Assembly: GCA_902565895.1 (NCBI GenBank)
Contig: CACFGV010000022.1
Span: forward strand, 1-33,149
Length of the DNA stretch: 33,149 bases
Origin: K189A clade bacterium
GTDB lineage: Bacteria > Pseudomonadota > Gammaproteobacteria > Pseudomonadales > Azotimanducaceae
Reading direction: 5' to 3'
Below the pieces are notes generated by a model. It ran no database searches and had not been told where the DNA came from. It saw nothing but the letters and a program-made list of their open reading frames with translations. The position numbers and the translations under genes were made by a program. Below are positions 1,599 to 33,149 of this stretch, piece after piece. Every line of letters begins with the position of its first letter. Position 1 is the stretch's first letter.

Positions 1599-1762
1599 TT
1601 GCCAAGCCTTTAGTTACGAAGTCGGTAAGACTGAAAGATAGTATAGGCACTTGTCAAAGAAACGATAGATATAAGTGGCAGGGTTATAAACAGCGCGACC
1701 ACTGGATTGCTGTGAGCTAGGCTCTGAACGATAATCTGGCGCAGTATCCAATGGAGGTCGTT

Positions 1763-2905: not shown

Positions 2906-2985
2906 CCTGCATGCACGTGCGGCGCTAACTTCCAGGGATAAATAAGGGTGCACACCTAGCAAACTTTTTGGGGAGGAATCGACAG

Positions 2986-3801: not shown

Positions 3802-3921
3802 TCGGTTTTCACAATTACGCCTGTTAACGGCTGCCTCACAATTTAACTAGGACCAACGGTCAATGGCTTTAATGTCAGTCGCACACCAAAGCAAACAGCG
3901 TCACTTACTTGTAGGGCCACC

Positions 3922-5817: not shown

Positions 5818-5859
5818 CGTCGGCGGTTACTAGCAAGAACCTATGACCCAGCACAGACC

Positions 5860-6693: not shown

Positions 6694-6706
6694 CCACGGC
6701 CTAAGG

Positions 6707-7669: not shown

Positions 7670-7690
7670 AAAGATTCTCTTGGTAGCGGA

Positions 7691-8653: not shown

Positions 8654-8811
8654 GCCAATCCTTATGTGCAAGCAGCCGAAGTGTAGGGATTTGGCATAGC
8701 AGAGGCCAGTTACGGCCAAGGCGATGACCGCTTAGGTTGTCGAGAGCAGCACAGCAGTCAGGTATTTCTCGTGACGTTGTCGTTGATCCTAGTCATTGGG
8801 AGCCAGTATGG

Positions 8812-8825
8812 TCTGTTGCAACAGA
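8812..8825. promoter_or_regulatory. 14-bp perfect palindrome, candidate operator
   Basis: TCTGTTGCAACAGA is a perfect inverted repeat with no spacer. It lies 32 bp upstream of the CaiB/BaiF start, in the space shared with the divergent PhyH/AKR operon. A weak promoter-like pair, TTGATC at 8783-8788 and TATGGT at 8807-8812 (18-bp spacing), would put the palindrome over the transcription start, as for a TetR- or GntR-type repressor site. The palindrome is seen directly; the operator role and the promoter are inference. Confidence 0.4.
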
Positions 8826-8856
8826 ATAGATTGGGCAACATCGGGGGGTAAACAAT

Positions 8857-19601: not shown

Positions 19602-20177
19602 CTAGGGGGACAGCATGTCCTGTAGAAATGGCTTATGGGTGCGTAATTGGTCCTCGCTGATCCCGCGCATTTCGTACGGCAGCACCACCCATTGATTGAC
19701 CTCGTGTAAAAAATAGTCGGGGTAGGGTGCCTTTGGGTTGGTGTGCTTCCACAGGGTAGCTACGCGTACTTGATGTGGCATGTTGCGGCGCAACCCGGTG
19801 CGCAATTGGTCTACCACGGCTCGGGTGTGGCGGCCGCTACGGTATACGTCATCGACAATCAGCAAGCGATCGTCGGCACTTAATGTCTGCAAAGCATAAC
19901 TTTTGCCATGCACTCGAATGCCCTCTTTGGTTTCGCTTGAGCGCTCGTATTGAGGCAAACCCTCGTAGGAGGTCCGGATGGTGGTGTGGTCTGTTGCAAC
20001 GCCCAGATAGGCCAAACACTCTTGAACCGCGAGGGCGACCGTGCTGCCGCCGCGCCACAAACCGACGATAAAGGTGGGCCGGTAACCGCTGGCGAAAATC
20101 CGAGCGCCTAGCCGGTAAGAGGCGGTAATATGATCTCGCTCTTTAACAAAGATTCTGTCGATGTGCGAAGTATTCAT
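19602..20177 (-). CDS. Phosphoribosyltransferase, hypoxanthine-type (COG2236), with altered PRPP loop
   Basis: A 191-residue type I phosphoribosyltransferase and a clear paralogue of its divergent neighbour at 20255-20821. They share the W-R-G-G loop, R-T-S, the H-G-x-S-Y segment and the T-H-K-P tail. The PRPP loop reads L-L-I-V-D-D-V-Y-R-S-G-R-H with D109/D110. Where the neighbour has the Asp that acts as general base in hypoxanthine-guanine PRTs, this copy has Arg113, and where the neighbour has Thr it has His117. It may have a different base specificity, low activity or a regulatory role in the manner of PyrR; these are inferences. A weak G-rich site precedes the ATG. The two genes share a 77-bp promoter region containing an 8-bp inverted repeat. 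Confidence 0.8.
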   Translation of the reverse strand: MNTSHIDRIFVKERDHITASYRLGARIFASGYRPTFIVGLWRGGSTVALAVQECLAYLGVATDHTTIRTSYEGLPQYERSSETKEGIRVHGKSYALQTLSADDRLLIVDDVYRSGRHTRAVVDQLRTGLRRNMPHQVRVATLWKHTNPKAPYPDYFLHEVNQWVVLPYEMRGISEDQLRTHKPFLQDMLSP

Positions 20178-20215
20178 ATTTAGCCTGCGCCTTATCTTTG
20201 TTTCTGCTCAGTTAG

Positions 20216-20238
20216 GCGTTGTCTTGTTTTGACAACGC
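20216..20238. promoter_or_regulatory. 8-bp inverted repeat between the divergent PRT genes, candidate operator or hairpin
   Basis: GCGTTGTC (20216-20223) and GACAACGC (20231-20238) are perfect inverted arms separated by 7 bases. The repeat lies in the 77-bp space between the two divergent PRT starts and ends one base before GGGGA (20240-20244), the ribosome site of the plus-strand gene. A weak promoter pair, TTGTCT at 20219-20224 and GATAAT at 20243-20248, overlaps it. It could be an operator for a dimeric regulator of both genes or an RNA hairpin limiting translation of one. The repeat is seen; its role is inference. Confidence 0.5.
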
Positions 20239-20254
20239 TGGGGATAATAACGCC

Positions 20255-20821
20255 ATGACAGACAAATACTACATTGACCCAGAGCAATTGCTCGCGGATT
20301 CCTTCAGGCTCGCCCAACAAGTGCATCGAAGCGGCTATGAACCCACGTTCATTATGGCGCTGTGGCGAGGCGGTGCGCCAATTGGTTTGGCTGTGCAGGA
20401 ATACTTTGCCTATCACAATATAGAAACTGATCACATTTTGGTGCGCACCAGTTCGTATCACGGCATCGACCAGCAGTCTCGAGACGTTAATATTCACGGC
20501 CTGAGTTACCTTGTAAAAAACCTTTCCGCTGAGGATCGAGTGTTGATCGTTGACGACGTCTTCGACACCGGTCAAACAATCAATGCAATTATCCAAACCA
20601 TGCGGGCGCAGTTAAAAAACAATTTGCCCCAAGATATTCGAGTGGCGGTGCCGTATTTCAAGCCCAGCCGCAACCAGACCGACCGACTACCAGAGTACTT
20701 TCTTCACGAAACCGAGGAGTGGCTTATATACCCGCACTCGGTAGAGGGGCTTACGCCAGAGGAGATTAAGACGCACAAGCCGCAGCTGTATGAGGTGCTG
20801 CACAAGTACATCGAGACGTAG
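20255..20821 (+). CDS. Hypoxanthine-type phosphoribosyltransferase (COG2236)
   Basis: A 188-residue type I PRT, expected to join hypoxanthine and/or guanine or xanthine to PRPP, giving the nucleotide. The PRPP-binding loop is canonical: V-L-I-V-D-D-V-F-D-T-G-Q-T with D100/D101, the general-base Asp104 and T105/T108. The W-R-G-G segment at 37-40 carries the pyrophosphate-binding loop. The frame is open to a TTG at 20219, but GGGG at 20240-20243 points to the ATG at 20255. It diverges from a paralogue with a degenerate loop and converges with the exported adenosine deaminase gene 5 bp away. In this setting it probably completes salvage of bases imported by the permease at 26427-27725 (inference). 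Confidence 0.88.
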   Translation: MTDKYYIDPEQLLADSFRLAQQVHRSGYEPTFIMALWRGGAPIGLAVQEYFAYHNIETDHILVRTSSYHGIDQQSRDVNIHGLSYLVKNLSAEDRVLIVDDVFDTGQTINAIIQTMRAQLKNNLPQDIRVAVPYFKPSRNQTDRLPEYFLHETEEWLIYPHSVEGLTPEEIKTHKPQLYEVLHKYIET

Positions 20822-20826
20822 GGTTG

Positions 20827-22395
20827 TTACGGCTGGAAAAAGCGAGCGGCAAAACGACTGAGCCGTGTCTCCAGTTCCCATTGCAAAGTGGCTTTTGGGC
20901 TTGCTGCTAAAAAGTCAGCGCAGCCTTTGTCGATCTCGCGCGAGCCCACAGACGTTGCCGCACAGGCGTCCACAACCGTTGCCGATAAGGTGGTGGAAAA
21001 CAAGGATGCGCCGGGCAGGAAGCTGTATTGCAAGGAGTTGCGTGCAAAGTAAAGTAATTGTTGGTAATTCAAGTCATAGGTGGTCACAGCGCGCTGGTAT
21101 TCGTGGGTCAAATCTATGCGCGAAACGCCTTCGTCATCCGTAGCAAGGGTAACGGGCACACCATATTCGAGGTAGGTAGGCAGCGGATGAGCGGCGTCCT
21201 TGATGCCCAAAATGACATCGTTACTGGTGAGATTGATTTCTACTAAAATATCCTTTAACGCCATCGACTTGAGCAGTTCATCCATATTGCTGTCGTAGGC
21301 AATGTCGATACCGTGGCCGATGCGGGTCGCCCCAGCTGTTTCAATAGCGTCGCGGATATGCCAACCCAGGTTCTCGGGTGGTACAAGCCCCAGCGTCAGT
21401 TCTCCCGCATGTAGGGTGATGCCAGCAGGTTCGGCGGGGAACGCGGCGCTCAGCTCTGCAACGAATTGCATATGTTGGTGATAGTCGCGTAGGGCGATGC
21501 GATGGTCCTCTGGGGCAACGAAATTTAGTGCCACCACACGAGCGTCGGCTTGCATAAGCTTGACCGCCAACAGCGTCTGGGCGTACACCTCGATTGGTGC
21601 AAACGTCCGCAGCACCTGGGCTTGGAATCTGACTGTAACGTCGCAACCTACGGCCGACGTTTGGCTTTGTTCGTTGCAGCCCAGCAGCCTTTGTTGGCGT
21701 GCTTCAATGGCATCGAATTGTGTTATGACCTGACTTACGATCTCATCGACTTTGGCGTGGTCAATGCGCTCGCCAAACGGCGCGTCCAGGCGTCCACTGC
21801 TTGCGGCCAATCGAATCACGTCCAACATGCCCAGGCTGATCATCAGCTCCAAATACAGCATATTTTGTCGGCCTGCACGCTGCCTTGCCTCTGCCACCAT
21901 GTCGCCAAAGCGACCCAGTGCGGCGGTTTGAAAGCGGCTGAAAGTCGCAAAGAATTGATCATGACCCGACACCGATCGGCGCTCGAAATTGCGCACGGAC
22001 AAGGCGTCAATAATCGGTTCCAGGGGCTGGGTTGAGCCGTCCGCCATGAGCTGTTTCAGCGAAATCGTTCCATCACAAGGCGGTGGCGTGATGACGTTTG
22101 TTTTTAGATCAATGCACTTGCCGTCTTCGCTGGCCCACTGCAAATACGATTCCGCATATACAGCGCCAGAAAGGTGGTTATGTAAGTCGCCGCCTTTGGG
22201 GAATTGTTGGAGAAACTGGCGTAGTTTAACGGGGTCCTGTTTGATTGATTCATAGTAGTCAGCGACAGCCGCAACGGACCCATGAGGGAGCACGATCAGC
22301 ACAGTCATGACCAGCAGCCTTTTGACTAAAGGCCGCAAGCTGCTTAGCCGACGGATGTTGGAAGCGATTCTTTTGGGAGCTACAGCCCTGCGCAA
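20827..22395 (-). CDS. Exported adenosine deaminase-like enzyme
   Basis: A 522-residue amidohydrolase of the adenosine/AMP deaminase family, converting adenosine (or a related aminopurine nucleoside) to inosine plus ammonia. The zinc and catalytic residues are all present: H72-N-H74, H329-A-G-E332, G-H361-G-I-D, and D420/D421 in A-T-D-D-E-G. A signal peptide (basic run near 21-26, hydrophobic core, cleavage near A-V-A around 45) predicts a periplasmic or secreted enzyme, as in the ADGF-like branch, unlike cytoplasmic Add. It is longer than Add (about 330), with an insert near 230-260. The start is the TTG at 22395, preceded by GGGGG; an ATG at residue 30 would destroy the signal peptide. It follows the NUP gene by 11 bp, so they are co-transcribed. 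Confidence 0.88.
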   Translation of the reverse strand: MRRAVAPKRIASNIRRLSSLRPLVKRLLVMTVLIVLPHGSVAAVADYYESIKQDPVKLRQFLQQFPKGGDLHNHLSGAVYAESYLQWASEDGKCIDLKTNVITPPPCDGTISLKQLMADGSTQPLEPIIDALSVRNFERRSVSGHDQFFATFSRFQTAALGRFGDMVAEARQRAGRQNMLYLELMISLGMLDVIRLAASSGRLDAPFGERIDHAKVDEIVSQVITQFDAIEARQQRLLGCNEQSQTSAVGCDVTVRFQAQVLRTFAPIEVYAQTLLAVKLMQADARVVALNFVAPEDHRIALRDYHQHMQFVAELSAAFPAEPAGITLHAGELTLGLVPPENLGWHIRDAIETAGATRIGHGIDIAYDSNMDELLKSMALKDILVEINLTSNDVILGIKDAAHPLPTYLEYGVPVTLATDDEGVSRIDLTHEYQRAVTTYDLNYQQLLYFARNSLQYSFLPGASLFSTTLSATVVDACAATSVGSREIDKGCADFLAASPKATLQWELETRLSRFAARFFQP

Positions 22396-22406
22396 GACAA
22401 CCCCCG

Positions 22407-23537
22407 CTACCTGCTGTTGCCTGGAACAGTCTTGGCATACTGGTCCCAGTTGCTCAGTAACTCGTCGATTACAATAGACCCAGTAATGTAGATGTTCTCC
22501 AATGACGCTTCCATACCTGCGTAGCCATCGTTCTCTTTCAACAGATTTTCTGCCGCGGTGACGCCTGGTGGCTGCATGGTGTAATTGCTCCCGCCGCGCA
22601 GCACTAGGAATCGGTCAACGTCGACTTTGTTGATCTTGTCGAGGTAATACAGGGCTTGATAGGTGCCAGTATCCTCCATGGCAGAGGTCACAAAGTCAGT
22701 CTCGCCGTCAGACCAATAGCTCACCCAACGATTGGCCCAGTCGTTCATCAATTTGCCGTGCCAAAAGGTCATGGCGGCGATATGACCGCCGGTCAGTACG
22801 AAGGGTGGTTTGCGGGCATTGGGGTGTTCGGTATATAGCGCTCGGGTTGCCGCCAGCGCCTCAGGATCGACCAACGGTGCGTCTTTGGTCAGCTCAAAAG
22901 CCCAGTCGCGCAGCCCAGCGTTTGCCTTAAACATTTCGCCAGTAGGCTCGGGTCGTGCTGGGTCGTAAGGAAATTTTGTATAGCGCGCAAAAAAGCCAGT
23001 GTCCCAATCCTCGGGTATTTCACGCGCATCGATTTCGTGACCAAGGTCGCCGTCCACCAAATATGAGGACCAAGCGACCGAACCTATGGATGCGTCTTCT
23101 GGATCAATGCCGGCAATGCCGGCCACCATCCAATAAGCTTTGGATAGATCAAAGCGGGGGTCTAAACCCAAAGCCATGGTCGCGGTGGCAGACTTTGCAG
23201 TGCCCATACCGGTGACCATGCCGAGTATCTGCGATTCGCTGTTGTAGAAGAGATCATGATGGGATTGGGGAAAGGGAATTCGCTCGTTGAGGTTGCGGCG
23301 CTCCTTCCACAGTTGGAACTCGCCAGCAGTATCACCCTCGTCCTCGCCAATTTCGAACATGGTGACAATCACTGCCTTTACCGGCAGCGGTGCCGGTGTT
23401 TTTGCCTCTGCAGTCAGTTCCGAGTTGGGAGCGCAGGCAGTGGTTACGGCCAGCAGTAGCAGCACACCACACAGTTTGCACCAAAGCGGCAGATTCTCGT
23501 GACGTGCTATACGAAGGCGTAATTTGGATTCGAGCAT
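22407..23537 (-). CDS. Purine nucleoside permease (NUP) family protein, exported; probably a nucleoside phosphorylase/hydrolase
   Basis: A 376-residue member of the NUP family (named after a Candida nucleoside permease). There is no set of transmembrane segments. The protein has one N-terminal signal ending in V-T-T-A-C, a lipobox-like site, then a globular domain with V-T-G-M-G-T-A-K-S near 110 and A-G-I-A-G-I-D-P near 137. S-A-M-E-D-T-G later resembles the M-E loop of nucleoside phosphorylases. The fold relation to that superfamily suggests that it binds or cleaves purine nucleosides in the periplasm instead of forming a channel (inference). AAGGA before the ATG at 23537 supports this start over one at 23573. 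It is the first gene of an operon with the exported adenosine deaminase and diverges from the TonB receptor. Confidence 0.8.
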   Translation of the reverse strand: MLESKLRLRIARHENLPLWCKLCGVLLLLAVTTACAPNSELTAEAKTPAPLPVKAVIVTMFEIGEDEGDTAGEFQLWKERRNLNERIPFPQSHHDLFYNSESQILGMVTGMGTAKSATATMALGLDPRFDLSKAYWMVAGIAGIDPEDASIGSVAWSSYLVDGDLGHEIDAREIPEDWDTGFFARYTKFPYDPARPEPTGEMFKANAGLRDWAFELTKDAPLVDPEALAATRALYTEHPNARKPPFVLTGGHIAAMTFWHGKLMNDWANRWVSYWSDGETDFVTSAMEDTGTYQALYYLDKINKVDVDRFLVLRGGSNYTMQPPGVTAAENLLKENDGYAGMEASLENIYITGSIVIDELLSNWDQYAKTVPGNSR

Positions 23538-23918
23538 TAGGGTTCCTTGTGTTGGCAAATCATGGAAAAGCACATGGCTGCAGTTTGTTTAGTTAGCCGC
23601 GCTTTTTCCAGCCCCAAACAGGGCTCAAGCAACAAAAATAGAAATTAGCCTCGCGCTTGGCGAAGCCTCTTTTGCATGGTGTTCAAACATGGTGCAGGTC
23701 CTGTGTTATTGCACAGCTGTGACTCATCAAAATATGCAATCTGTAGCGGATGCGTGTGAGTGCTGGCGGCACATTAATTGCACACAAATTGCACATACAG
23801 GGTGCTACAAGTTCTTGAGCAGAGACGGCGCAAAAGGGGCGGCCCTCGGACCGTTTAGACGGTACGCAAAAAATAGCAACAGAAACTTAAAACAGATTAC
23901 TCAACACAAGGGGACGGT
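23538..23918. promoter_or_regulatory. Divergent intergenic region between NUP and TonB-receptor genes, with ATTGCACA repeats
   Basis: This is the longest gene-free stretch in the window and must hold the promoters of the NUP/deaminase operon (leftward) and the receptor (rightward). ATTGCACA occurs three times: 23708-23715, 23777-23784 and 23788-23795, the last two exactly 11 bp apart, about one helical turn. This looks like a regulator or cAMP/CRP-like binding array, but no known consensus fits well. Two small hairpins are also present: AGCCC/GGGCT at 23610-23625 and ACCGT/ACGGT at 23850-23863. I saw no convincing -35/-10 pair and no credible small gene. Confidence 0.4.
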
Positions 23919-26408
23919 ATGCTTTTTCTCAAGTCACATTCACTCAACGCCATTGGTACTTCAATCGCTCTTAGCATTGCTGCGATAACGCCATTTATGG
24001 CAGCACAAGCTGAGACTGCCCAGGCAGATGGAGATTTAATCGAAGAAGTCGTCGTTACCGGAGACTTGAACAGTTTGCCCGGTGAAAACGTTGAATCGAT
24101 TTTCGGGTTTAACAAATCGATCTTGGAAACACCGCGCAGTGTATCCACCGTCAGTGAGGAACTGATGGATCGTATGAACATGCAGGACATCGACGAGTTG
24201 GTTACGGTATCGCCGGGCTCATTTACCCAATCCTTCTTTGGCGTGGCCGGCGGCCTAGACGTGCGTGGTACACCCGGCGAGACCTACTTCCGTGGCATTA
24301 GACGATTAGATAACCCCGGTAACTACCCAACGCCAATTGGCGCCTCGGATCGTGTAGATATTGTGCGGGGTCCAGCCTCGCCTATTTACGGACCCTCGAA
24401 AATCGGCGGCTACTTAAACTTCAATCCCAAGTCCGCTCGTATCGAAGAAACCGGTGCTTACATAGCTGAGAACATCGGTTCGATTGCCTACACCACGGGC
24501 AGCTGGAATAAAAGCATTCTTACCGCAGAAGTCGGTGGCCCTGCAGAGCTTGGTGGCAAGCCCATGGGTTTTTATTTGTATGGTGAGTTGGAGAATTCGG
24601 ACAGCTATTACACCAACGCGCCGGGCGTTGAGCAGTCGTTGTTGCAGGCCAGTTTCGATCTGGATCTTAGCGACCGGGTGCAGCTCCAGTTTGGCGGTAT
24701 GTATCACGATTACGCCGGCGCTCAGAATGCGGGCTGGAACCGCATTACCCAAGACTTGATAGACGACGGTACTTACATCACTGGAGCACCAACGCCACTG
24801 GACACCGATGGCGATGGCAAGATCTCCCATCAGGAATTTGATGTCACTGGTGATGGATTTACTGACCTCAATCCCTATGCGTTTTGGACTTTTGGGACCG
24901 GTGGCTTGACAGCGAACTCGCCACTCACCTATGACGACATTAGCGGTTTTTTTGACACGGATCTCATGGCGCTCACCGATGTGGGGACTACCAAACTGGA
25001 CCCTGCTGTCACCTTGATTGCGGCGGATGATCAATTGACCAATGAGGTCATGACACTTTACTTCGACGTTATTGTTGATATCGACTCTGGTTGGGAGCTG
25101 ACCAACCAAATGTTTTACGAGTCCTATGACAACCTTAATGAAAATGCCTACGGATTCTCGCAGTTCCACAAGACCTATGTATTTGAAGAAAAGCTGATCG
25201 TCGCAAAATCCTTTACCTTCGACAGCATGGTGGCCTCCTTTCAACTGTCACCCTCGCTGCGCTACACGAACTTTGAACACGCTGATGACTACACCAACGA
25301 GTACTTTCACCGGCGTGATCTGACTGGCCCGAGCACAGCGCTGGACGCGCGACTTCTGGCGACCCGCATAGACGACGACTACACCGAGTACTACATTGGT
25401 GAATACACTGACCTGGGGCTGGCGTTCTTAACTGATCTGGCGTGGGAAAACGGCTTGTCGTTGTTGCTGGGAGCACGCTACGACAGCATAGACATGGAGA
25501 GCCGCCAGCCGGTCGACAAGTTGCTGCTGGCGAGCTCGAACAACTTCTGCACCGACGGCAGTTGTATTGATGTTGCTGCGGATAACGAAGTGTCTGGTAC
25601 CTCGTGGACCGTGAGCGTGTCCTACGACGTTGCGGGTTCTGGGATCATCCCGTACGTCACTCTCTCCGAGCAGGCGACAGTTATTGCGGGTCAGGGTGCC
25701 GAGTTGACGGTAAGCAACGTAGCATCGGGCGAGGCTTTTGATGCTTCGGAACTGACAGAATACGGGATTAAAGGCGAACTGCTCGAGGATGATCGGCTGT
25801 ATTTTTCGTTGTCTCGGTATGAGCAAGAACGTACTGACTTCTCGGCCCAATCTATCGTAACTAACCAGGCCGTTCGTACCGAAGGTACTGAGTTTGAATT
25901 GCGCTGGGCGGTAAACGACGCGTTGTTCGTCGGTGCAACCTACACCAACGTAGAAGCGATCAATCTGAGCAGTGTTGCGGACGGCAATCGCTTCAGTTTC
26001 TACGGTGGCGATGACCTGCCGTTAGTGCCACCGCACTTAATCTTTGGTGGGCAAATTGGAGGACCTGTAAACGTTGCAGCTAGCGGCGGCCGTCGCGCGG
26101 GAATGCCAGAGAACATTTTATCAGCATACGGTACCTACTTATTTGATAACGGACTCACCATCAGTGCCAGCGTCACAGATGTAGAGTCGGCGCCCTCTGG
26201 TTTTTCTAACAGTGTAATTTTGCCGGCCTATACACTGTTGAATATGACCATCGGCTGGGAGTCAGAGTCCTGGAACGTGTCGTTAACCGGCAAGAACCTA
26301 ACGGATGAGCGTTACTTCCGATCCAATTTCCCCAATCTGTTTGGCAGTAACATCGTGCTACCTGAGTTACCTCGGCACTTCTTAGCCAAGGTGCAATACA
26401 CCTTCTAG
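23919..26408 (+). CDS. TonB-dependent outer-membrane receptor with embedded EF-hand loop
   Basis: An 829-residue TonB-dependent receptor. The signal peptide is cleaved near A-A-Q-A-E (about residue 31). I-E-E-V-V-V-T-G near 41-48 is the TonB box, the plug domain follows (T-P-R-S-V-S-T-V, R-G-I-R-R, D-R-V-D-I-V-R-G-P-A-S-P-I-Y-G), and the barrel ends in the aromatic V-Q-Y-T-F. Residues 295-306 read D-T-D-G-D-G-K-I-S-H-Q-E, a perfect EF-hand calcium loop, followed by a second acidic D-V-T-G-D-G-F-T-D stretch, in what should be an extracellular barrel loop. AAGGGGA precedes the start. The neighbours (exported deaminase, NUP protein, purine permease) suggest nucleosides or nucleic-acid breakdown products as ligand, not a siderophore; this is inference. 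Confidence 0.92.
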   Translation: MLFLKSHSLNAIGTSIALSIAAITPFMAAQAETAQADGDLIEEVVVTGDLNSLPGENVESIFGFNKSILETPRSVSTVSEELMDRMNMQDIDELVTVSPGSFTQSFFGVAGGLDVRGTPGETYFRGIRRLDNPGNYPTPIGASDRVDIVRGPASPIYGPSKIGGYLNFNPKSARIEETGAYIAENIGSIAYTTGSWNKSILTAEVGGPAELGGKPMGFYLYGELENSDSYYTNAPGVEQSLLQASFDLDLSDRVQLQFGGMYHDYAGAQNAGWNRITQDLIDDGTYITGAPTPLDTDGDGKISHQEFDVTGDGFTDLNPYAFWTFGTGGLTANSPLTYDDISGFFDTDLMALTDVGTTKLDPAVTLIAADDQLTNEVMTLYFDVIVDIDSGWELTNQMFYESYDNLNENAYGFSQFHKTYVFEEKLIVAKSFTFDSMVASFQLSPSLRYTNFEHADDYTNEYFHRRDLTGPSTALDARLLATRIDDDYTEYYIGEYTDLGLAFLTDLAWENGLSLLLGARYDSIDMESRQPVDKLLLASSNNFCTDGSCIDVAADNEVSGTSWTVSVSYDVAGSGIIPYVTLSEQATVIAGQGAELTVSNVASGEAFDASELTEYGIKGELLEDDRLYFSLSRYEQERTDFSAQSIVTNQAVRTEGTEFELRWAVNDALFVGATYTNVEAINLSSVADGNRFSFYGGDDLPLVPPHLIFGGQIGGPVNVAASGGRRAGMPENILSAYGTYLFDNGLTISASVTDVESAPSGFSNSVILPAYTLLNMTIGWESESWNVSLTGKNLTDERYFRSNFPNLFGSNIVLPELPRHFLAKVQYTF

Positions 26409-26426
26409 GCTTGGAGCGGCAAAGCG

Positions 26427-27725
26427 TTATAGGAAAATAAACTTGGCGGCGAACACTAGGGCTACTAACAGCACTGCGACAGGTACATCCCTAATTCGTC
26501 CAGTCATGAGTTTAATGGCCACATAACTGATGAAACCGACACCGATGCCGTTGGCGACCGAAAAGCTCAGCGGCATTACCAGAGCCGTGATGATGGCAGG
26601 CGAAGACTCGGTGATGTCTTGCCAATCAAGATCGACCAGACTCTGAGCCATAGCGGCAGAAACGAATAGCAACGCAGCCGCCGCTGCGTAGCTGGGAATG
26701 CTCTGTGCCAGGGGTGCGAGGACCAGACACATCAAAAAAGCGATTCCGATAACCACAGCGCTAAGGCCTGTGCGCCCGCCGCTCTCCACCCCAGCGGCGC
26801 TTTCAATGAACGAAGTTGTAGATGACGTGCCCAGCAACGCGCCGACTGCTGTGGCGCTGGAGTCTGCGATCAAAGCGCGCCCCAAGCGTGGGAGTCGACC
26901 CTCCGCATCCATCATTTTTCCACGGGTAGCGACTCCAACCAATGTGCCAGCAGTATCAAACACATCCACCAGCAATAGCGTGAGCACCACGCTTAGCATG
27001 GAAATGTCTAGCGCCGCTGCAATGTCCAATTGCAACATTACGGGTGCTGGGGAGGGCGGCGCGGACACGACGCCGATAAAGTCGGCTTGGCCACTGATCC
27101 AGCCGATCAGCGAAATTAAGACAATACCCAGGATGACAGCGCTGCGATAACCCATCGCGGCCATTGCGGTAATGGCAAAAAATCCCACTAACGCCAGTAG
27201 CGGTCCGAAGCTAACTAGGTCGCCTAAGCCTACGAAAGTAGCCGAATTGGCTTGAACAATGCCAGCGTTCTTCATGGCGATAAAAGCGAGAAAAAAACCG
27301 ATACCGGCGGCCATGCCTAGCTTCAGGTTTCTCGGTATCGAATTGATAAGCCAGGCGCGGATAGGCAGCAGACTGATCACTACAAATAAAATACCAGACA
27401 GGAATACTGCTCCCAGTGCAGTTTGCCAGGGGTGCCCTGACCCGACGACTACGGCGTAGGTAAAAAACGCGTTTTGACCCATCCCTGGGGCTAAGCCAAT
27501 AGGATAATTGGCAACCAGCCCCATGACTAAAGAACCTAAAGCTGCCGCTAAACAGGTAGCAACGAAGACTGCTCCGAAATCCATACCCGCGTCAGACAGG
27601 ATTAGCGGATTCACAACAGTAATGTAGGCCATGGCCAAAAATGTGGTGAGGCCGGCTGTGACCTCGCGAGACAGGTTGGTGCCATTCGCCGATAAGCCAA
27701 AGAAACGATCAACAGAACTGAGCAT
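26427..27725 (-). CDS. NCS2/AzgA-type purine-base permease (adenine/guanine/hypoxanthine)
   Basis: A 432-residue inner-membrane permease, probably a proton symporter of purine bases. N-P-L-I-L-S-D-A-G-M-D near 40-50, A-N-Y-P-I-G-L-A-P-G-M-G-Q-N-A-F-F-T-Y near 78-96, L-L-V-D-V-F-D-T-A-G-T-L-V-G near 250 and T-S-S-T-T-S-F-I-E-S-A-A-G-V-E-S-G-G-R-T near 300-320 are hallmark AzgA/PbuG-type blocks; the normal membrane-segment count is about 12-14. The frame is open to 27827, but AAGGA six bases before the ATG at 27725 gives the better start, where the family begins. The stop lies 18 bp from the stop of the convergent receptor. It would import the base released in the periplasm. Confidence 0.92.
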   Translation of the reverse strand: MLSSVDRFFGLSANGTNLSREVTAGLTTFLAMAYITVVNPLILSDAGMDFGAVFVATCLAAALGSLVMGLVANYPIGLAPGMGQNAFFTYAVVVGSGHPWQTALGAVFLSGILFVVISLLPIRAWLINSIPRNLKLGMAAGIGFFLAFIAMKNAGIVQANSATFVGLGDLVSFGPLLALVGFFAITAMAAMGYRSAVILGIVLISLIGWISGQADFIGVVSAPPSPAPVMLQLDIAAALDISMLSVVLTLLLVDVFDTAGTLVGVATRGKMMDAEGRLPRLGRALIADSSATAVGALLGTSSTTSFIESAAGVESGGRTGLSAVVIGIAFLMCLVLAPLAQSIPSYAAAAALLFVSAAMAQSLVDLDWQDITESSPAIITALVMPLSFSVANGIGVGFISYVAIKLMTGRIRDVPVAVLLVALVFAAKFIFL

Positions 27726-27983
27726 AAAAGTCCTTAGCGCTAGAGGCGGTAGTTTATTGCAACCTTGCAGGACACCGAAATTATTATCATTAGCTGCATC
27801 GTAGCAGCAGTCGATACCGCATCCCAAACGAGGGAAAGCCCCGATATTGGATCTACAGTTTCTTATAAGGGGTTAACTGATCACCTTCTAGGTTTCTTCG
27901 CCAACATCCGAATTGACGGCTTAGAGTCGTGAATCTAAATTTCGCACCTAATGCGACGTCTCGAAGAACGAACAATCCCGAGC

Positions 27984-28898
27984 TCACTTATGCACTTGTG
28001 AGTCCGCGATCTTCCTTTTCAGATATGTGCCTACCTGTACGGGAGCGAACCGACTGATGCGGTTGTTTTCAATACAGGTTGTCACGGGTTCGACGACTAC
28101 TTTGTCGTCGGGATCCATAAAAAAAGCGATTGAATACCGGTCTGTTCCGTTTGTTCTGGGCAACACACGATGTCTTGTTGAAGGAAACAAGCCGTTGGAC
28201 CATATTTCCAGCATGTCGCCAACGTTTACAATGGCGGCATCTTCTACTGCTGGGCAATCTCGCCATGTTTTGTTTGAGTCCAATATTTGTAAGCCGCCGA
28301 CACCTTGTTGAAACAAAAAAGTAATTGATCCGTAATCGCTGTGCGCTCCAGCGCCCATCTGACCGAGACCTAGCCTCGGATTGATACATGGGTAATGCAG
28401 GATCCGAAGGGTGGCGTTCTCGCCGGAGTGTGTGTCGCTAAAAAAATTTTCTTTTTGTCCAATTGCAACAGCGCAGACCTTTAGCAACTCAGTTGCGGCA
28501 GCAAAGCAAGACCGAAACAATGCTGTACTGATATCGCGAAACTCATCGCTTGGCCAAACATCCTCATCGTCCACTCGACCCAATACATTACGCATGGTGA
28601 AGGCTTCTTTCAGGTCCGGCAAGCCATCAGGTGCAAGAGCTTCTGATTCTGCGGCCTGGTATCCAAAATTGGATTGGGGTCCAGAAAAGTTATATTGCCA
28701 TTTCTTCTCAGAAGGGAGCGCAAATAAAGACTTACTACAGGCGAAGAGGTTATCTACAAGCGACGTTTGAAAACCCAAGTTTCTCGCCACCAAAAACCCA
28801 CTGCTCTTAAAAGCAGCATCTAAGAGGCCTGACATCCGTCGTATTTCTCCAGCATCGAACGCCTCAAAGTGCGCGAAATCTATCGTCTCAAGCTTCAT
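27984..28898 (-). CDS. Isopenicillin-N-synthase-like Fe(II)/2OG dioxygenase
   Basis: A 304-residue member of the isopenicillin-N-synthase/plant-2OG-dioxygenase family. The iron ligands are H186 and D188 in A-H-S-D-Y-G-S-I-T and H243 in S-T-R-H-R-V. R254 and S256 in D-R-Y-S-I-A-F-F form the 2-oxoglutarate (R-x-S) site. The N-terminal D-A-G-E-I-R and G-F-L-V-A-R-N segments are the usual DIOX_N part. The substrate is unknown. It lies close to the purine permease on one side and the ureide operon on the other, so a purine-derived substrate is possible (inference). It is not TauD-like, so it is not an obvious xanthine dioxygenase (XanA). AAGGA lies before the ATG. It diverges from the DUF1330 gene. 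Confidence 0.85.
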   Translation of the reverse strand: MKLETIDFAHFEAFDAGEIRRMSGLLDAAFKSSGFLVARNLGFQTSLVDNLFACSKSLFALPSEKKWQYNFSGPQSNFGYQAAESEALAPDGLPDLKEAFTMRNVLGRVDDEDVWPSDEFRDISTALFRSCFAAATELLKVCAVAIGQKENFFSDTHSGENATLRILHYPCINPRLGLGQMGAGAHSDYGSITFLFQQGVGGLQILDSNKTWRDCPAVEDAAIVNVGDMLEIWSNGLFPSTRHRVLPRTNGTDRYSIAFFMDPDDKVVVEPVTTCIENNRISRFAPVQVGTYLKRKIADSQVHK

Positions 28899-29035: not shown

Positions 29036-29338
29036 ATGTCCGTTTACGTAGTTGTTGACAATGAAGTACATCAACCCGAAGAGTACGCCAAGTACTTAGA
29101 ACTTATTACGCCAACCGTTGCTGAATACGGTGGGGAATACGTTATTCGAGCCGGAGAGATTTTGTTAGCTGACTCTGATTGGCAGCCAGACCGTCTGGTG
29201 GTAATGGCTTTTCCGGATGCCAAAAGCGCTAAAGCTTGGGTTGAATCCGAAGAAGTGCGGCCGATCCACGAGATGAGGCGGAAATATGCGACATCGAAAC
29301 TGATTGTCATCGAGGGCGTTAAAACCGCCAAAAGCTAA
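29036..29338 (+). CDS. DUF1330 family protein
   Basis: A 100-residue protein with the dimeric ferredoxin-like alpha/beta fold of DUF1330. It starts Y-V-V-V-D-N-E-V-H, has E-Y-A-K-Y-L, G-G-E-Y-V-I-R-A-G-E and the R-L-V-V-M-A-F-P-D-A-K-S-A-K-A-W core near 60-75. The family is often found beside catabolic genes, but its role is not established. The ribosome site is weak. The stop lies one base from the stop of the convergent HpxK-like gene, and the gene is divergent from the oxygenase at 27984-28898 across 137 bp containing GGCCGGCC. Confidence 0.8.
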   Translation: MSVYVVVDNEVHQPEEYAKYLELITPTVAEYGGEYVIRAGEILLADSDWQPDRLVVMAFPDAKSAKAWVESEEVRPIHEMRRKYATSKLIVIEGVKTAKS

Positions 29339-29339
29339 A

Positions 29340-30635
29340 TCAGACTTCTTCGGTTCCCAAGGCGTAATCAATTATCGCGGTCATGAGAACTTCCATTGCA
29401 ACTTCTACGTCCTGCACCATTATAGACTCGGCTGGATGGTGACTTATGCCGTCCTTGCACCGAACGAAAAGCATACCTAAGGGAGTTATATTCTCCATTG
29501 CCATAGCGTCATGCCCTGCGCCGCTCGGGAGAGAAAGAACTTCCAAGTTGCAATCGGCTATTGATTTTTCAAGTGTTCGTTGCCACTTGCTAGAGCATGC
29601 AACCGAGGGAGCCTTATGTATCTCTTGCCAACTCATTGCCAGATCTCTTGAATTGAGTATCGAATCGAAACGATCGGTTAACCAAGCAAATGCCGCATCC
29701 CTAGTTTTATCTCGCGCGCTTCTGATATCGAGCGAAAATTGCACGTTGCCGGGAACCACGTTTACCGCACCAGGATGACAATTGATATCGCCCACTGTTG
29801 CCACAACGTCGTAAAGGTTAGCTGCTTTCTCGACTTCCTGTACGCAAAGGCAAGCGCCAACCAATGCATCCTTCCGCATTTCCATCGGTACGGTTCCTGC
29901 GTGACCCGATTCACCCTCTATAACAAAGTTGAATCTGCGAGCGCCGGCGATTGCCGTGACCACTCCCACTGGCAAATTCGCACGATCTAGAACGGGCCCC
30001 TGTTCTATGTGGACCTCGAGATATCCAGCCAAATTTTCTCGGGGGATCGCAGCATCCGACACTTTGGTGCTGTCCAGGCCAAAAGAGGTCATGGCTTCCG
30101 CGATCGACACTCCATTAACGTCCGTGAGATCCAACCAATCGTCCTTCCACCTATCAGCTATGGCATAACTTCCTAGTAAGGTAGCACCAAAGCGAACCCC
30201 TTCCTCGTCACAAAAACCGACAACGTCGATGTTGAACGGAAGGGCTATCCTCTGCGACCTGAGGAGATGGAGCAGCTCAACCGCCATCAGAACGCCTAGA
30301 ATGCCATCGTATTTACCAGCGTCGACAATGGTGTCCAGGTGAGATCCTAAGATAAGCGTTTTAGAGTCTGCATCCTGAGAGGGTAGGCGGCCCCAAACGT
30401 TACCTACTGCATCTTGCCAGTGCTCTGCTTTGGCCTCGGCGATCCAACCCTCAACGATAGCGTTAGCGCGTTTGTGTGAATCACTCAAATAGGTCCGCTC
30501 GATGTAATCGCGGCTTTCCGAAACTGCTGCTAAAGCTTCACAGCGGCGCATAACTCGCTCCGCTGAGGTTTTGAATAGTCGCTTGCGAACTGACTTCTCA
30601 ATCTGAAATTGAGGCTTCATATCTGCAGCTGTCAT
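29340..30635 (-). CDS. hpxK: Allantoate amidohydrolase-like M20-family Zn hydrolase (HpxK/AllC type)
   Basis: A 431-residue dinuclear metal hydrolase of the allantoate amidohydrolase / beta-ureidopropionase / N-carbamoyl-amino-acid hydrolase group. Ligands are readable: H99 in G-S-H-L-D-T, D110 in K-Y-D-G, E144/E145 in C-D-E-E-G, H209 in E-V-H-I-E-Q-G-P and the late H in G-A-G-H-D-A-M. The early R-C-E-A-L-A-A-V-S-E segment is typical of Hpx-type enzymes. The reaction would be allantoate to ureidoglycine plus ammonia and CO2. The frame is open to 30764, inside the upstream gene; the ATG at 30635 lies 7 bases after that gene's stop and gives the normal family length, though it has no strong ribosome site, so reinitiation is likely. 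The neighbours support allantoate over other ureido substrates (inference). Confidence 0.82.
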   Translation of the reverse strand: MTAADMKPQFQIEKSVRKRLFKTSAERVMRRCEALAAVSESRDYIERTYLSDSHKRANAIVEGWIAEAKAEHWQDAVGNVWGRLPSQDADSKTLILGSHLDTIVDAGKYDGILGVLMAVELLHLLRSQRIALPFNIDVVGFCDEEGVRFGATLLGSYAIADRWKDDWLDLTDVNGVSIAEAMTSFGLDSTKVSDAAIPRENLAGYLEVHIEQGPVLDRANLPVGVVTAIAGARRFNFVIEGESGHAGTVPMEMRKDALVGACLCVQEVEKAANLYDVVATVGDINCHPGAVNVVPGNVQFSLDIRSARDKTRDAAFAWLTDRFDSILNSRDLAMSWQEIHKAPSVACSSKWQRTLEKSIADCNLEVLSLPSGAGHDAMAMENITPLGMLFVRCKDGISHHPAESIMVQDVEVAMEVLMTAIIDYALGTEEV

Positions 30636-30642
30636 TTCGCGA

Positions 30643-31875
30643 TCAAGAAATGGTGGAGGCAGCATAGGTTCGCCGAGCTTCAGCAACAGCCGCGCCGGGC
30701 GGTAATTTGAATCCTTCGGACAATAGGCACTGTTCCAAGCATGCAAGCGTCTTGAGCACCGCATCCGGTCGGGCGTTGTAGCCCATGGTGCCGATGCGCC
30801 AAATTACTCCTTTCAGCGGACCAAAAGATGTACCTATTTCTATCCCGAATTCCAGCAACATTATGTGCCGTAGACGCTCCCCATCAATTCCTTCAGGGAT
30901 ATAAACCCCCACAACGTTGTGCATTCTATTATTTTGGTCACCGTAGAGCTTTAAGCCCATGCTAGTTAATCCACCAGCCAGCGCATGGCCATTTACACGA
31001 TGCCGTTGGATTGATTCTGTGAGGCCCTCTTCCAACAAGATCCTTGCGCATTCGTGCGAGCCGTATAGCATTGACGTAGCCTCTGTATGATGATTTAGCC
31101 GCATTTCGCTCCAGTAATCCATGATCATGGCCAAATCAAAATAGTTAGACGCTATGCGGCTTCCAGGGCCATCCACAATATTTTCATCGCGTATTCCAGC
31201 TTCTACATGTCGCCGCTCTTCAATAATTGTTACCGCACGCTCACTGAGGGTGATGGGTGCACTACCTGATGGCCCGCACAAGCATTTTTGTAATCCCACC
31301 GTTACAGCATCTAAATGCCAGGCATCAGTTTTTAGCTCGTTACCAGCAATCGATGCAGTCGCATCGCAGTAAAACAATACCCCCTCTTCGCGGCAGATTT
31401 CTCCGATTTCCTTCAGAGGTTGCAACATGGTTGTAGAAGTATCGCCCTGAACAATGGCTAACATCTTTGGCCGTGTGGATTTTATTTCTCGTTGAATAAC
31501 ATCGGGGGAGAATACGCTGCCCCATTCCGTGTTGATGGCACTTACTAGAGCTCCGCAGCGATCAGCGATTTCACACAACAAATGGCCAAACCTGCCGAAA
31601 ACGGGCACGAGCACTTTATCGCCAGGCTCCAGCAGGGACACCATTGCCGCTTCTATCGCGCCTCGAGACGTTGAGTCGATTAGGAATGTCCAGCGATTTT
31701 GAGTATCGAAAACCTGGCGATACAAAGCCATCGTCTCGTCCATACACTCGGTCATCTTGGGGTCGAATTGGCCTATTAGCTGGTTCGACATCGCCTTGAG
31801 AACGCGCGGGTCGGCATCGATCGGACCTGGTCCCATGAGCAGGCGAGCAGGAGGCAAAAAGGCGGGATAATTCAT
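30643..31875 (-). CDS. hpxJ: Ureidoglycine-glyoxylate aminotransferase-like class V PLP enzyme (HpxJ/PucG type)
   Basis: A 410-residue class V aminotransferase. It begins with a G-P-G-P-I block (15-19), has G-D-T-S-T-T-M-L-Q-P-L near 144-154, D171-A-T-A-S and the PLP lysine K197 in V-G-L-Q-K-C-L-C-G-P-S-G-S-A-P-I-T. The Q-K-C-L-x-G-P-S-G form and the T-T-M segment point to ureidoglycine-glyoxylate aminotransferase (HpxJ/PucG) instead of alanine- or serine-glyoxylate aminotransferase. It would convert ureidoglycine plus glyoxylate to oxalurate and glycine. Its ATG overlaps the TGA of the upstream HpxW-like gene (ATGA), so the two are translationally coupled, and the allantoate amidohydrolase follows 7 bases after its stop. 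Related AGXT activities cannot be excluded by eye. Confidence 0.85.
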   Translation of the reverse strand: MNYPAFLPPARLLMGPGPIDADPRVLKAMSNQLIGQFDPKMTECMDETMALYRQVFDTQNRWTFLIDSTSRGAIEAAMVSLLEPGDKVLVPVFGRFGHLLCEIADRCGALVSAINTEWGSVFSPDVIQREIKSTRPKMLAIVQGDTSTTMLQPLKEIGEICREEGVLFYCDATASIAGNELKTDAWHLDAVTVGLQKCLCGPSGSAPITLSERAVTIIEERRHVEAGIRDENIVDGPGSRIASNYFDLAMIMDYWSEMRLNHHTEATSMLYGSHECARILLEEGLTESIQRHRVNGHALAGGLTSMGLKLYGDQNNRMHNVVGVYIPEGIDGERLRHIMLLEFGIEIGTSFGPLKGVIWRIGTMGYNARPDAVLKTLACLEQCLLSEGFKLPPGAAVAEARRTYAASTIS

Positions 31876-33149
31876 CGAACGTTTCCCGATGCGACAGCCC
31901 AGCCGTCGCTCCGTGGGTCTGAGGCGGCAACGGGCTCGTGGGCACCGATGAAGTCTCGCAACATACCGGCGTGACCCATAAGCTCATTCAGTGGGGCAAC
32001 CGTACTAAAGGCTTGACCACGCTTTGACAGGTGCTCAGTGATGGTTTGGTCAATGTCCGCCTCAATCTTTAAGTCATTGGTGTCGTCGCCCCAGGTCCTA
32101 CCCAAAAGCCAACGCGGTGCACGGACTGACTGTTCGATTGACTGATCGAGATATAAATAACGGGCGATTAGTGCAGCTTGGGTTTGAGGTTGTCCCTCGC
32201 CTCCCATTGTCCCGTAGCTTATTCGATCGCCGTTTTTCATTAACATCATTGCGGGGTTAAGCGTGTGAAATGGTTTCGTCATTGGTATTAAATATCTTCT
32301 GTCTTTCTCTAGAAGAGAAAAGCTAGAACCTCGGTTATTCCACACTAAGCCATACTCCGGGACAACGACTCCGGATCCGAACTCCCAGAAAATACTTTGA
32401 ATAAAGCTCACCATCACACCGTTCTTATCAAGAGCGCCCATCCAGACGGTGTCGCCTGACTGTGCAGCGACTGGCCATGGCATAGAGGTTGAGAGATCGA
32501 TCTCTGCAACACGGGCCTTCAGAGCATCTTTAGATAAAAGATTTTGCAGCGACTCCGGCACTCTAGTCGGGTCTGCTAGGAGCTTATCTCGCTCGATAAA
32601 AGCGATTTTTGTACATTCGATTAGCGCATGAATGACCTCGCTCTCACTCCAACTTGGCTTGTATAGGCTATCAAAACAACCCAGCAGCATGAGAGATGCG
32701 AATCCCTGCGTTGGAGCGGACAAATTATATGCAGTACCGAAGCGGGTTTCTGCCTCTAGCACCAGCATGTCGGTGGCGACATAAGCCTCGAAGTCCTCTG
32801 GCGTGAGGGGAGATCCGACCGCTTGCAAAAATTCGCCGATATTTCGGCCAGTCGGACCTCGATAAAAACTGTCGAGCCCATCAGCGATTAAACACTCTAG
32901 TAGATGAGCTAGCCCGGGATTCTTGAACTCTTCTCCACAAGCCAAGGGCTTGCCAGAGCGAGTAAAAATTCGCTGATAGTATGGTGAGTCTTTCAATTCT
33001 TTTGCAACCTTGATCGACGCCATCTCGAGACTTTTTGTTACCGGTATGCCTTTCCTGGCTCGTTCCACCGCTGGACCCAGCAATACTTCTAAGGGCAAAT
33101 CTGGAGCTCTTCGAGACTCAGCAAGGGCATGCTCAGCGGCCCTTGATTT
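31872..33149 (-). CDS. hpxW: Oxamate amidohydrolase-like gamma-glutamyltransferase-family protein (HpxW type), C-terminal part
   Basis: The frame is open to the right edge (425 residues plus stop), so the gene's start is outside the window; full-length relatives have about 520-580 residues, so about 100 or more N-terminal residues are missing. It is a self-processing Ntn hydrolase of the GGT family. The nucleophile threonine is at codon 32450-32448 in S-G-D-T-V-W-M. Downstream are V-S-F-I-Q-S-I-F-W-E-F-G-S-G, N-N-R-G-S-S-F-S-L, P-F-H-T-L-N-P-A-M, G-T-M-G-G-E-G-Q-P-Q-T-Q and P-R-W-L-L-G-R-T-W-G. The last blocks match the HpxW branch, shown in Klebsiella to be oxamate amidohydrolase in urate breakdown, more than glutathione-cleaving GGT. 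It is the first visible gene of the ureide operon. Confidence 0.8.
   Translation of the reverse strand, partial: KSRAAEHALAESRRAPDLPLEVLLGPAVERARKGIPVTKSLEMASIKVAKELKDSPYYQRIFTRSGKPLACGEEFKNPGLAHLLECLIADGLDSFYRGPTGRNIGEFLQAVGSPLTPEDFEAYVATDMLVLEAETRFGTAYNLSAPTQGFASLMLLGCFDSLYKPSWSESEVIHALIECTKIAFIERDKLLADPTRVPESLQNLLSKDALKARVAEIDLSTSMPWPVAAQSGDTVWMGALDKNGVMVSFIQSIFWEFGSGVVVPEYGLVWNNRGSSFSLLEKDRRYLIPMTKPFHTLNPAMMLMKNGDRISYGTMGGEGQPQTQAALIARYLYLDQSIEQSVRAPRWLLGRTWGDDTNDLKIEADIDQTITEHLSKRGQAFSTVAPLNELMGHAGMLRDFIGAHEPVAASDPRSDGWAVASGNVR

Follow-up and report, generated by a model that had tools for sequence, protein, structure and literature searches.

A probable purine nucleoside acquisition locus with a TonB-dependent receptor and an exported NUP-family protein in a K189A clade gammaproteobacterium

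Introduction

To our knowledge, the known Hpx/Puc/Puu clusters take up bases or nucleosides via inner-membrane carriers. In TonB-dependent polysaccharide utilization loci, a receptor, periplasmic trimming enzymes, an inner-membrane carrier and catabolic genes are found together. The locus reported here, from a K189A clade bacterium, carries a TonB-dependent receptor beside genes for an adenosine deaminase family protein (ADA), a NUP protein (PF06516), an AzgA-type permease and two type I phosphoribosyltransferases (PRTa and PRTb). The analyzed stretch (the window, 33,149 nucleotides) was the entire contig CACFGV010000022.1 of assembly GCA_902565895.1, here called C22 of the source genome (2.02 Mb, 68.8% complete). 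The original prediction, made from the DNA letters before any database search, had laid out six adjacent genes at 19602-27725 as a vectorial pathway in which adenosine is taken up, deaminated, cleaved, imported as hypoxanthine and salvaged. On the evidence presented below, the locus is probably a module for outside-in acquisition of purine nucleosides, linked to purine salvage and, in this bacterium, also to breakdown of the purine ring.

Phytoplankton have been inferred to release nucleosides from the expression of bacterial genes, according to the available part of PMC9870897. No published outer-membrane nucleoside receptor was found in a literature search that left subscription journals mostly outside its scope, and none appeared in the available portions of PMC9870897, PMC10199937 and PMC7748154. 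The same search found no paper combining 'purine nucleoside permease' with 'TonB-dependent'. In the accessible text of PMC2847192, 'purine nucleoside permease' was listed among transporters.

Results and Discussion

The six-gene block and its conservation

All six open reading frames (ORFs) claimed by the original prediction were present, with Pfam scores over the cut-offs. On the minus strand were PRTa (19602-20177; cytoplasmic; PF00156, 29.4 bits against a cut-off of 26.3), ADA (20827-22395; with a signal sequence; PF00962, A_deaminase, 89.1 against 27), NUP (22407-23573; with a lipobox-like signal and a predicted nucleoside hydrolase; PF06516, 371.7 bits against 27) and the AzgA-type nucleobase permease (26427-27725, from an ATG inside ORF 26427-27827; PF00860, Xan_ur_permease, 178.3 against 27). 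On the plus strand were PRTb (20255-20821, from an ATG inside ORF 20219-20821; PF00156, 54.1 bits against 26.3) and the receptor (23919-26408; Plug, 45.5 against 23.9), which belongs to a NUP-linked orthologous group. NUP and the receptor diverge from an intergenic region (23574-23918), where both promoters presumably lie. Rfam gave no match in this gap at the gathering score, and the seven gap sequences compared were weakly alignable, with no clear conserved operator.

The block was compared in 58 genomes, 37 of them from the same genus. NUP was matched in 22 of the 58 (the own genome included), 21 of these in the own genus, and 20 regions around NUP were fetched, 19 from the own genus. The full order AzgA-receptor-NUP-ADA-PRTb-PRTa was found in 7 of these 20 regions, all of the own genus (L028, with AzgA cut by the contig, L029, L030, L031, L032, L034 and L036). 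L028-L031 are closely related and hence not independent cases. Since the flanks of L032 and L034 were unlike those of the other regions, the six genes can be regarded as a conserved unit. The remaining 13 regions held partial blocks. L038 ran from PRTa through NUP, where the contig ended; L037, L039 and L045 had NUP and ADA without PRT genes, with a receptor also in L037 and L039 and with L039 and L045 at contig edges; in L033 and L035 ADA was 5.7 kb away from NUP. L042-L044 had two NUPs flanking a distant ADA (28-30%), L046 had NUP alone, and NUP was in pieces in L047; the last two regions, L040 and L041, are considered further below. Between ADA and NUP of L035 (positions 4329-9456; genome G034), oxygenase-like and ABC transporter-like ORFs and an NMT1/THI5-like binding protein were named by eye.

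The receptor, counted as a long match of at least 45% identity, was present in 18/22 NUP-positive genomes versus 2/36 NUP-negative ones, a count from which receptor fragments of the NUP-positive genome G006 and a fragment of 70 residues (96%) of the NUP-negative genome G033 were excluded. Similarly, ADA was matched at E<=0.001 in 18/22 versus 3/36 genomes. The Fisher p values over the 58 genomes were ~2.5e-9 for NUP with the receptor and ~1.6e-8 for NUP with ADA, and each was ~1e-5 within the 37 own-genus genomes; the sets were assembled by hand, and these statistics ignore phylogeny.

Wider survey of NUP loci

A genome-contig scan with NUP yielded 552 confirmed relatives, of which the best 80 were surveyed, and these are the nearest NUPs rather than a random sample. 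The closest of them came from marine gammaproteobacterial metagenome-assembled genomes (MAGs), one OM182 and two of the K189A clade. A neighbor was defined as a homologue of at least 70% coverage lying no farther than 10 kb from NUP; many of the contigs end early, and 51 of the 80 loci have full flanks. A receptor was found near NUP in 53 of the 80 loci, ADA in 56, either in 65 and both in 44; for the 51 full-flank loci, the values were 39, 37, 43 and 33. Identities to the window proteins were as low as 45% for the receptor and ~26% for ADA. Thus, the co-occurrence expected from a genome-neighborhood survey was found, both in the seven complete blocks and in the 65 loci with a receptor or deaminase near NUP.

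Other purine genes were also counted within 10 kb of NUP in the 80 loci, the query's own locus included. Cytosolic Add-type deaminases occurred in 28 loci (10 more matches at 25-29% were set aside as lying on exported ADAs or weak) and GuaD-type proteins of at least 44% identity in 20 (16 more at 23-29% were set aside). PuuE was found in 8 loci, an amidase in 9, PuuD in 2, CpdB-type proteins in 4 and IU nucleoside hydrolases in 3. For instance, the Cellvibrio locus L097 held guanine deaminase, PuuD-type urate oxidase, allantoinase PuuE, exported ADA, receptor, NUP, an amidase, a gamma-glutamyltransferase (GGT)-family protein, a TauE-type permease, an aminotransferase, cytosolic adenosine deaminase, allantoate amidohydrolase and a PRT; a PRTb homologue (51%) was found in this locus. 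In Vreelandella L091 and Neiella L089 and L100, a DUF3450-ExbB-TonB-TPR set lay between receptor and NUP (Pfam names were assigned for L091 alone), and a CpdB-type phosphoesterase was found farther along. In a single case (L112:5952-7982), NUP and an IU_nuc_hydro domain were fused in one open frame of 677 residues. These known families together form an unusual, widespread system.

Beyond the exported ADA, L042, L043, L044, L063, L065, L068, L098, L101 and others carried another NUP, with 40-47% identity to that of the window, and such pairs may reflect two substrates. In addition, a second signal-bearing protein of the purine nucleoside phosphorylase (PNP) superfamily adjoined NUP in L091 (19156-20007, Vreelandella); its Asn occupies the alignment column in which nine MTAN-like proteins carry Asp.

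Probable export of NUP and ADA

The window NUP carries a hydrophobic segment ending in LAVTTAC, which is lipobox-like, and the window ADA carries one ending in SVAAVA. The 12-residue NUP segment before the fold had a mean hydropathy of at least 1.6 in 78/80 homologues and at least 1.8 in 75/80, and a lipobox was scored in 50/80. These 80 proteins fitted the start pattern among 91 locus NUPs considered (11 unmatched); a stricter first pattern had scored 57 of 93 NUPs and missed 36, with counts of 54 and 32. For ADA, an export signal was scored in 46/51 proteins (52 references, 1 unmatched). In controls over the first 75 residues, hydropathy thresholds of 1.6 and 1.8 were reached by 6/20 and 2/20 PRTa and by 6/23 and 2/23 PRTb proteins, and by 0/10 AllC and 0/9 AGXT proteins. 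A first control over 35 residues was cleaner (PRTa 0/20, PRTb 0/23); the 75-residue control is the fairer of the two. Because the PRTa and PRTb controls were partly positive, hydropathy alone is a fair and imperfect sign of export. Judging from their sequences, the deaminase and NUP look exported, in agreement with the signal peptides noticed at first, and the cytoplasmic location that had been named as a counter-argument was not borne out.

NUP as a predicted nucleoside hydrolase

The NUP sequence and profile found no relative among the PDB sequences (one chance match, E 0.71), and the fold was therefore predicted. The AlphaFold2 (AF2) model, based on 85 sequences, had a mean pLDDT of 87.4 and consisted of a soluble alpha/beta domain with a single N-terminal helix, of low confidence, outside it. 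When this model was searched with Foldseek, the top 50 of 611 rows (E<=0.001) were all methylthioadenosine/S-adenosylhomocysteine (MTA/SAH) nucleosidases or futalosine hydrolases, with E values from 9.9e-12 and TM by target of 0.58-0.77. The modeled fold is that of the PNP/MTAN superfamily, which includes the nucleoside phosphorylases to which the original prediction had related the NUP fold.

Seven residues (E74, E85, M299, E300, R326, S329 and N330) were each invariant in 85/85 NUPs, and the M-E and R-x-x-S-N motifs were likewise unvaried (alignment A2, with 84 of 93 references; L048, L052, L069, L079, L109, L124, the L112 fusion, L128 and L129 were left out). Aligned by hidden Markov models to an MTAN profile built from 10 sequences, NUP showed a register across the whole fold at an hhalign probability of 1.7%; 9 of the 17 loci fetched for this comparison were dropped, having no usable frame. 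In this low-probability register, E85 corresponds to MtnN E12, M299-E300 to M173-E174, R326 to R193, S329 to S196 and N330 to D197. No trustworthy register was obtained by hhalign against single E. coli proteins or with a mixed PNP_UDP_1 profile. The candidate active site would therefore comprise E85 (or E74), M299-E300, R326 and S329-N330.

A nucleoside phosphorylase, making ribose 1-phosphate in the periplasm, would fit the superfamily shared with PNPs, and also the Asn at position 330, which we take to be the 6-oxopurine-favoring state (Asn, not Asp) of the phosphorylases human PNP and E. coli XapA. However, the phosphate-binding residues of a phosphorylase were not found in NUP. R87 and S90 of DeoD, presumably phosphate contacts and placed on NUP by motif, were read as V150 and I153, positions occupied by V/I/F and I/V in 85/85 NUPs. 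Furthermore, the invariant Glu was aligned with MtnN E12, at the low probability given above, and the top 50 Foldseek rows were hydrolases; the remainder of the 611 may include phosphorylases. Hydrolysis was preferred to phosphorolysis because of the nucleosidase fold matches and the hydrophobic residues at the phosphate positions, and we regard a phosphorylase as quite improbable. By analogy, Asn330 suggests 6-oxopurine specificity, and such a preference would account for a deaminase acting ahead of NUP. A futalosine hydrolase of the menaquinone route was rejected as well, as NUP is exported and scored 23.1 bits against a model cut-off of 124.7.

In the available text of PMC9431476, the NUP of Candida albicans, studied in yeast, transported purine nucleosides and thymidine and allowed an adenine-auxotroph yeast to form colonies on adenosine; no sensitivity to toyocamycin was seen, which its authors took as a narrower transport selectivity than that of CNT. 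This report and the Pfam name speak for a true membrane permease. The window NUP, however, has no multiple transmembrane helices; its model shows the one N-terminal hydrophobic helix, with the remainder predicted to be soluble. The Candida results can also be read as the action of a secreted nucleosidase, because 7-deaza nucleosides should resist N7-dependent cleavage; such an enzyme would equally allow growth on adenosine, with no uptake of 7-deaza analogues. A permease is accordingly considered very improbable. The evidence points to NUP being, most likely, an exported nucleoside hydrolase, neither permease nor phosphorylase.

Deaminase, receptor, permease and phosphoribosyltransferases

The deaminase matched adenosine deaminase 6n9m in the PDB (E 4.9e-14), and its catalytic residues are intact as first described (HNH, HAGE, GHG and DD). 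Among 52 homologues, HxH was found in 49, HAGE in 49, GHG in 50 and DD in 52. By family score and catalytic motifs, ADA belongs to the adenosine deaminases; it scored below the NCBIfam aden_deam equivalog cut-off (88.3 against 216.6), and adenosine is its presumed substrate.

The receptor was tested in 20 of the 80 surveyed genomes, 16 with a receptor at the locus and 4 without. The receptor beside NUP was the best match genome-wide in 16/16 of the former. Three of the latter (L083, L115 and L122) carried one elsewhere at 50-63% identity, and L125 had no receptor match genome-wide. At E<=1e-30, there were 1-3 matches in 19/20 genomes and none in one. By sequence and fold, the receptor groups with siderophore receptors, although its best sequence entry is titled only 'TonB-dependent receptor' and its TIGR01783 score (TonB-dependent siderophore receptor) was 104.5, under the cut-off of 223.5. 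PqqU, whose ligand PQQ is small and contains no iron, stood at rank 27 among the structure matches. The receptor also has an EF-hand-like loop of 12 residues (295-306; 24801-24836, plus strand), in which D295, D299, G300 and E306 were found in 51/51 aligned receptors and D or N at 297 in 46/51 (alignment A4, with 50 of 52 references; L058 and L124 were left out). These 12 residues are predicted to lie within a long extracellular loop, a topology judged by the lengths of the strands in a structure model whose confidence is moderate (75.5). They are a likely calcium site and may form a calcium-dependent ligand site.

Free nucleosides would be able to pass through porins on account of their size. 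It is conceivable that the receptor takes up a larger or rarer purine compound (an oligoribonucleotide, a nucleotide, NAD or a purine-bearing metallophore), which would be dismantled in the periplasm by exported phosphoesterases, ADA and NUP. The siderophore-type fold and the CpdB/5'-nucleotidase-type proteins of L089, L091 and L100 are in line with such a ligand. However, the six-gene block has no nuclease, phosphatase or siderophore gene, and CpdB-type matches occurred in just 4/80 loci, one of them at 22%. We consider a larger ligand rather unlikely and uptake of nucleosides, or of small compounds that yield them, the better explanation.

The permease was 47% identical to AdeP, 44% to AdeQ, 37% to GhxP and 36% to GhxQ of E. 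coli, and hence does not fall in the GhxP/GhxQ (hypoxanthine/guanine) branch. In P. aeruginosa, carriers likened to adenine and hypoxanthine-guanine transporters were linked to the uptake of guanine and, together with further carriers, of hypoxanthine, as far as the available part of PMC11633122 goes. The branch would therefore not by itself determine the carried base. PRTa and PRTb were 39% identical to each other. The best NCBIfam match of PRTb was HGPRTase, at 40.8 bits against a cut-off of 150, and PRTa gave no match to this model.

Proposed pathway

In the proposed pathway, the receptor would bring purine nucleosides, or small nucleoside-yielding compounds, through the outer membrane, as the gene linkage suggests. 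The exported ADA, given its family and motifs, would convert adenosine to inosine in the periplasm, and NUP, given its predicted fold, would hydrolyze 6-oxopurine nucleosides to base and ribose. The AzgA-type carrier would then take the base into the cytoplasm, where PRTa and PRTb may rebuild nucleotides or the ring may be degraded for nitrogen and carbon by XDH (xanthine dehydrogenase), PuuD, UraH/UraD, PuuE, AllC, the aminotransferase and the GGT-type protein, the genes of which are all present. Compared with the original prediction, the conserved purine locus and the exported enzymes stand, and phosphorolysis gives way to the likelier hydrolysis. Type I PRTs and an AzgA-family permease were confirmed; the hypoxanthine type of the PRTs was not, and the permease, nearer to AdeP/AdeQ than to GhxP/GhxQ, may carry hypoxanthine or another base.

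Several observations weigh against this pathway. L040 and L041 had NUP, AzgA and PRTs but neither ADA nor receptor. G020 and G025 carried receptor and ADA, yet no NUP match; G043 had ADA at 34% without NUP; and in G033, likewise without NUP, a contig edge carried 70 residues of a receptor end at 96% identity. Neither a receptor nor a deaminase homologue was near NUP in 15/80 loci, and PF06516 was found in just 5/369 genomes of the class sample, the own genome included. The nearest solved structures of the receptor are the siderophore receptors FoxA, PiuA and FhuA, and a permease nearest to adenine carriers fits poorly with a hypoxanthine product. To these are added the missing PDB relative and the 1.7% register of NUP, together with the nucleoside transport reported for the Candida protein, which supports the permease name; the growth of the yeast on adenosine, if the proteins are alike, argues against a strict 6-oxopurine preference (PMC9431476, available text).

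Probable link to purine-ring catabolism

The block does not end with the permease. In the window at 29.3-33.1 kb lie an allantoate amidohydrolase (29340-30764, minus strand; HpxK/AllC-like; NF006775, 533.9 bits against a cut-off of 479), a class-V aminotransferase (30643-31875, minus; PF00266; HpxJ/PucG-like judging from its context rather than from a curated model) and a GGT-family protein (31872-33149, minus; PF01019; HpxW-like by context). The last gene, whose 5' end is off the contig, scored 184.9 against 357.9, under the gamma-glutamyltransferase equivalog cut-off. HpxW is an oxamate amidohydrolase, according to the available part of PMC5270733. The six-gene layout therefore held as a block and not in its extent, since it continues into these three genes.

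On another contig of this genome, C17, genes for a second receptor (33% identity), an NCS2 permease and an amidase-like protein are followed by XDH (two subunits), XdhC, UraD, UraH, GuaD, PuuD and PuuE, and this run ends ~0.3 kb before the contig edge. The second receptor (L197:2393-4939), near XDH and the NCS2 permease, may serve another purine. Same-genus G015 has the eight C17 genes from XDH to PuuE in unchanged order, at 74-90% identity, and they are followed there, unbroken, by DUF3450-ExbB-ExbB-ExbD-TonB-TPR-GGT-aminotransferase-AllC-2OG (2-oxoglutarate) oxygenase, the last four being 87, 91, 85 and 83% identical to those of the window. In same-genus L198, the DUF3450-ExbB-ExbB-ExbD-TonB-TPR set lies within the catabolic cluster, and the GGT gene is 87.5% identical to the window's (Pfam names were given to 10 proteins of L197/L198 and the others were named by similarity). 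We take C17 and C22 to be the opposite ends of a single cluster, whose TonB set would fall in the gap between them.

The block might instead be confined to salvage, with unrelated catabolic genes next to it at 29-33 kb. An aminotransferase match of at least 73% identity was absent from 16/22 NUP-positive genomes (several of them incomplete MAGs), and in the fetched stretches L028-L032, L034 and L036 the block has PRTs without AllC, AGXT or GGT. However, all of the 6/58 genomes with such an aminotransferase (own included) carry NUP, and catabolic genes lie no more than 10 kb from NUP in Cellvibrio, Neiella, Vreelandella, Sessilibacter and Marinibactrum loci. One G034 contig carries both gene sets: PRTs, AllC, AGXT, GGT, PuuE, PuuD, GuaD, UraH, UraD, XdhC, XDH, ADA, NUP, receptor and AzgA at ~9.5-42.1 kb. 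Long PuuD matches were found in 7 of the 15 NUP-positive genomes searched (15 of 22). Salvage only is thus unlikely. With AllC, aminotransferase and GGT close to the block and the XDH-PuuE genes on another contig, the bases may be degraded in addition to being salvaged.

Other genes of the window

Between the permease and the catabolic genes lie a 2OG-Fe(II) oxygenase (27984-28898, minus strand; DIOX_N PF14226 and 2OG-FeII_Oxy PF03171), possibly accessory, and a DUF1330 protein (29036-29338, plus; PF07045), the latter between oxygenase and AllC. A DUF1330 homologue adjoins AllC in L064 as well, and an 83% identical homologue of the oxygenase follows AllC in L198. DIOX_N/2OG-Fe(II) oxygenases recurred near purine loci in L119, L120, L089, L100, L197 and L198, at 25-83% identity to the window's. 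The trypsin-like, P450, PhyH and HTTM-type genes at 291-5817 directly adjoin PRTa in L029-L031 and L036; as they are ~14 kb from PRTa in the window and adjacent to it in these relatives, the stretch at 6-19 kb is read as inserted or rearranged.

Significance and comparison with known systems

More broadly, alpha- and gammaproteobacteria may share an undescribed TonB purine nucleoside system (EF-hand receptor, exported ADA and NUP), with all PF06516 proteins being secreted 6-oxopurine nucleosidases, an extension that we hold tentatively and at slightly less than even chances. If the pathway is right, proteins commonly annotated as 'purine nucleoside permease' are secreted enzymes, and a substrate can be proposed for a conserved group of receptors, immediately testable in culturable Sphingomonadales and Cellvibrio; if it holds for the whole of PF06516, the family name and the Candida transporter assignment need revision. 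The shift of NUP from permease to exported nucleosidase is the most testable and most useful part.

The Candida albicans protein shares the PF06516 family name with the window NUP and was tied to purine nucleoside use (PMC9431476, available text). The two are likened by family name, not by sequence; unlike the protein of that report, the window NUP is nucleosidase-like and has a TonB-dependent receptor and an exported deaminase for neighbors. NUP resembles MTA/SAH nucleosidase and futalosine hydrolase in its fold and, in the low-probability register, in M-E and R-x-x-S. Unlike MTA/SAH nucleosidase, it looks exported, is ~100 residues longer without the signal and has Asn in place of the catalytic Asp of MtnN.

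The grouping of receptor, periplasmic enzymes, carrier and catabolic genes follows the logic of polysaccharide utilization loci. The present locus differs from them in being directed, presumably, at purine nucleosides rather than glycans, in its deaminase and nucleosidase-like protein and in the siderophore-type fold of its receptor. Like the Hpx/Puc/Puu clusters (for instance, Klebsiella HpxJ/K/W), the own genome or genus has XDH, XdhC, UraD, UraH, PuuD and PuuE, together with allantoate amidohydrolase, class-V aminotransferase and a GGT-family protein. Unlike those clusters, an outer-membrane receptor, a deaminase and NUP, the latter two apparently exported, stand in front of these genes, and some loci carry their own TonB-ExbB set.

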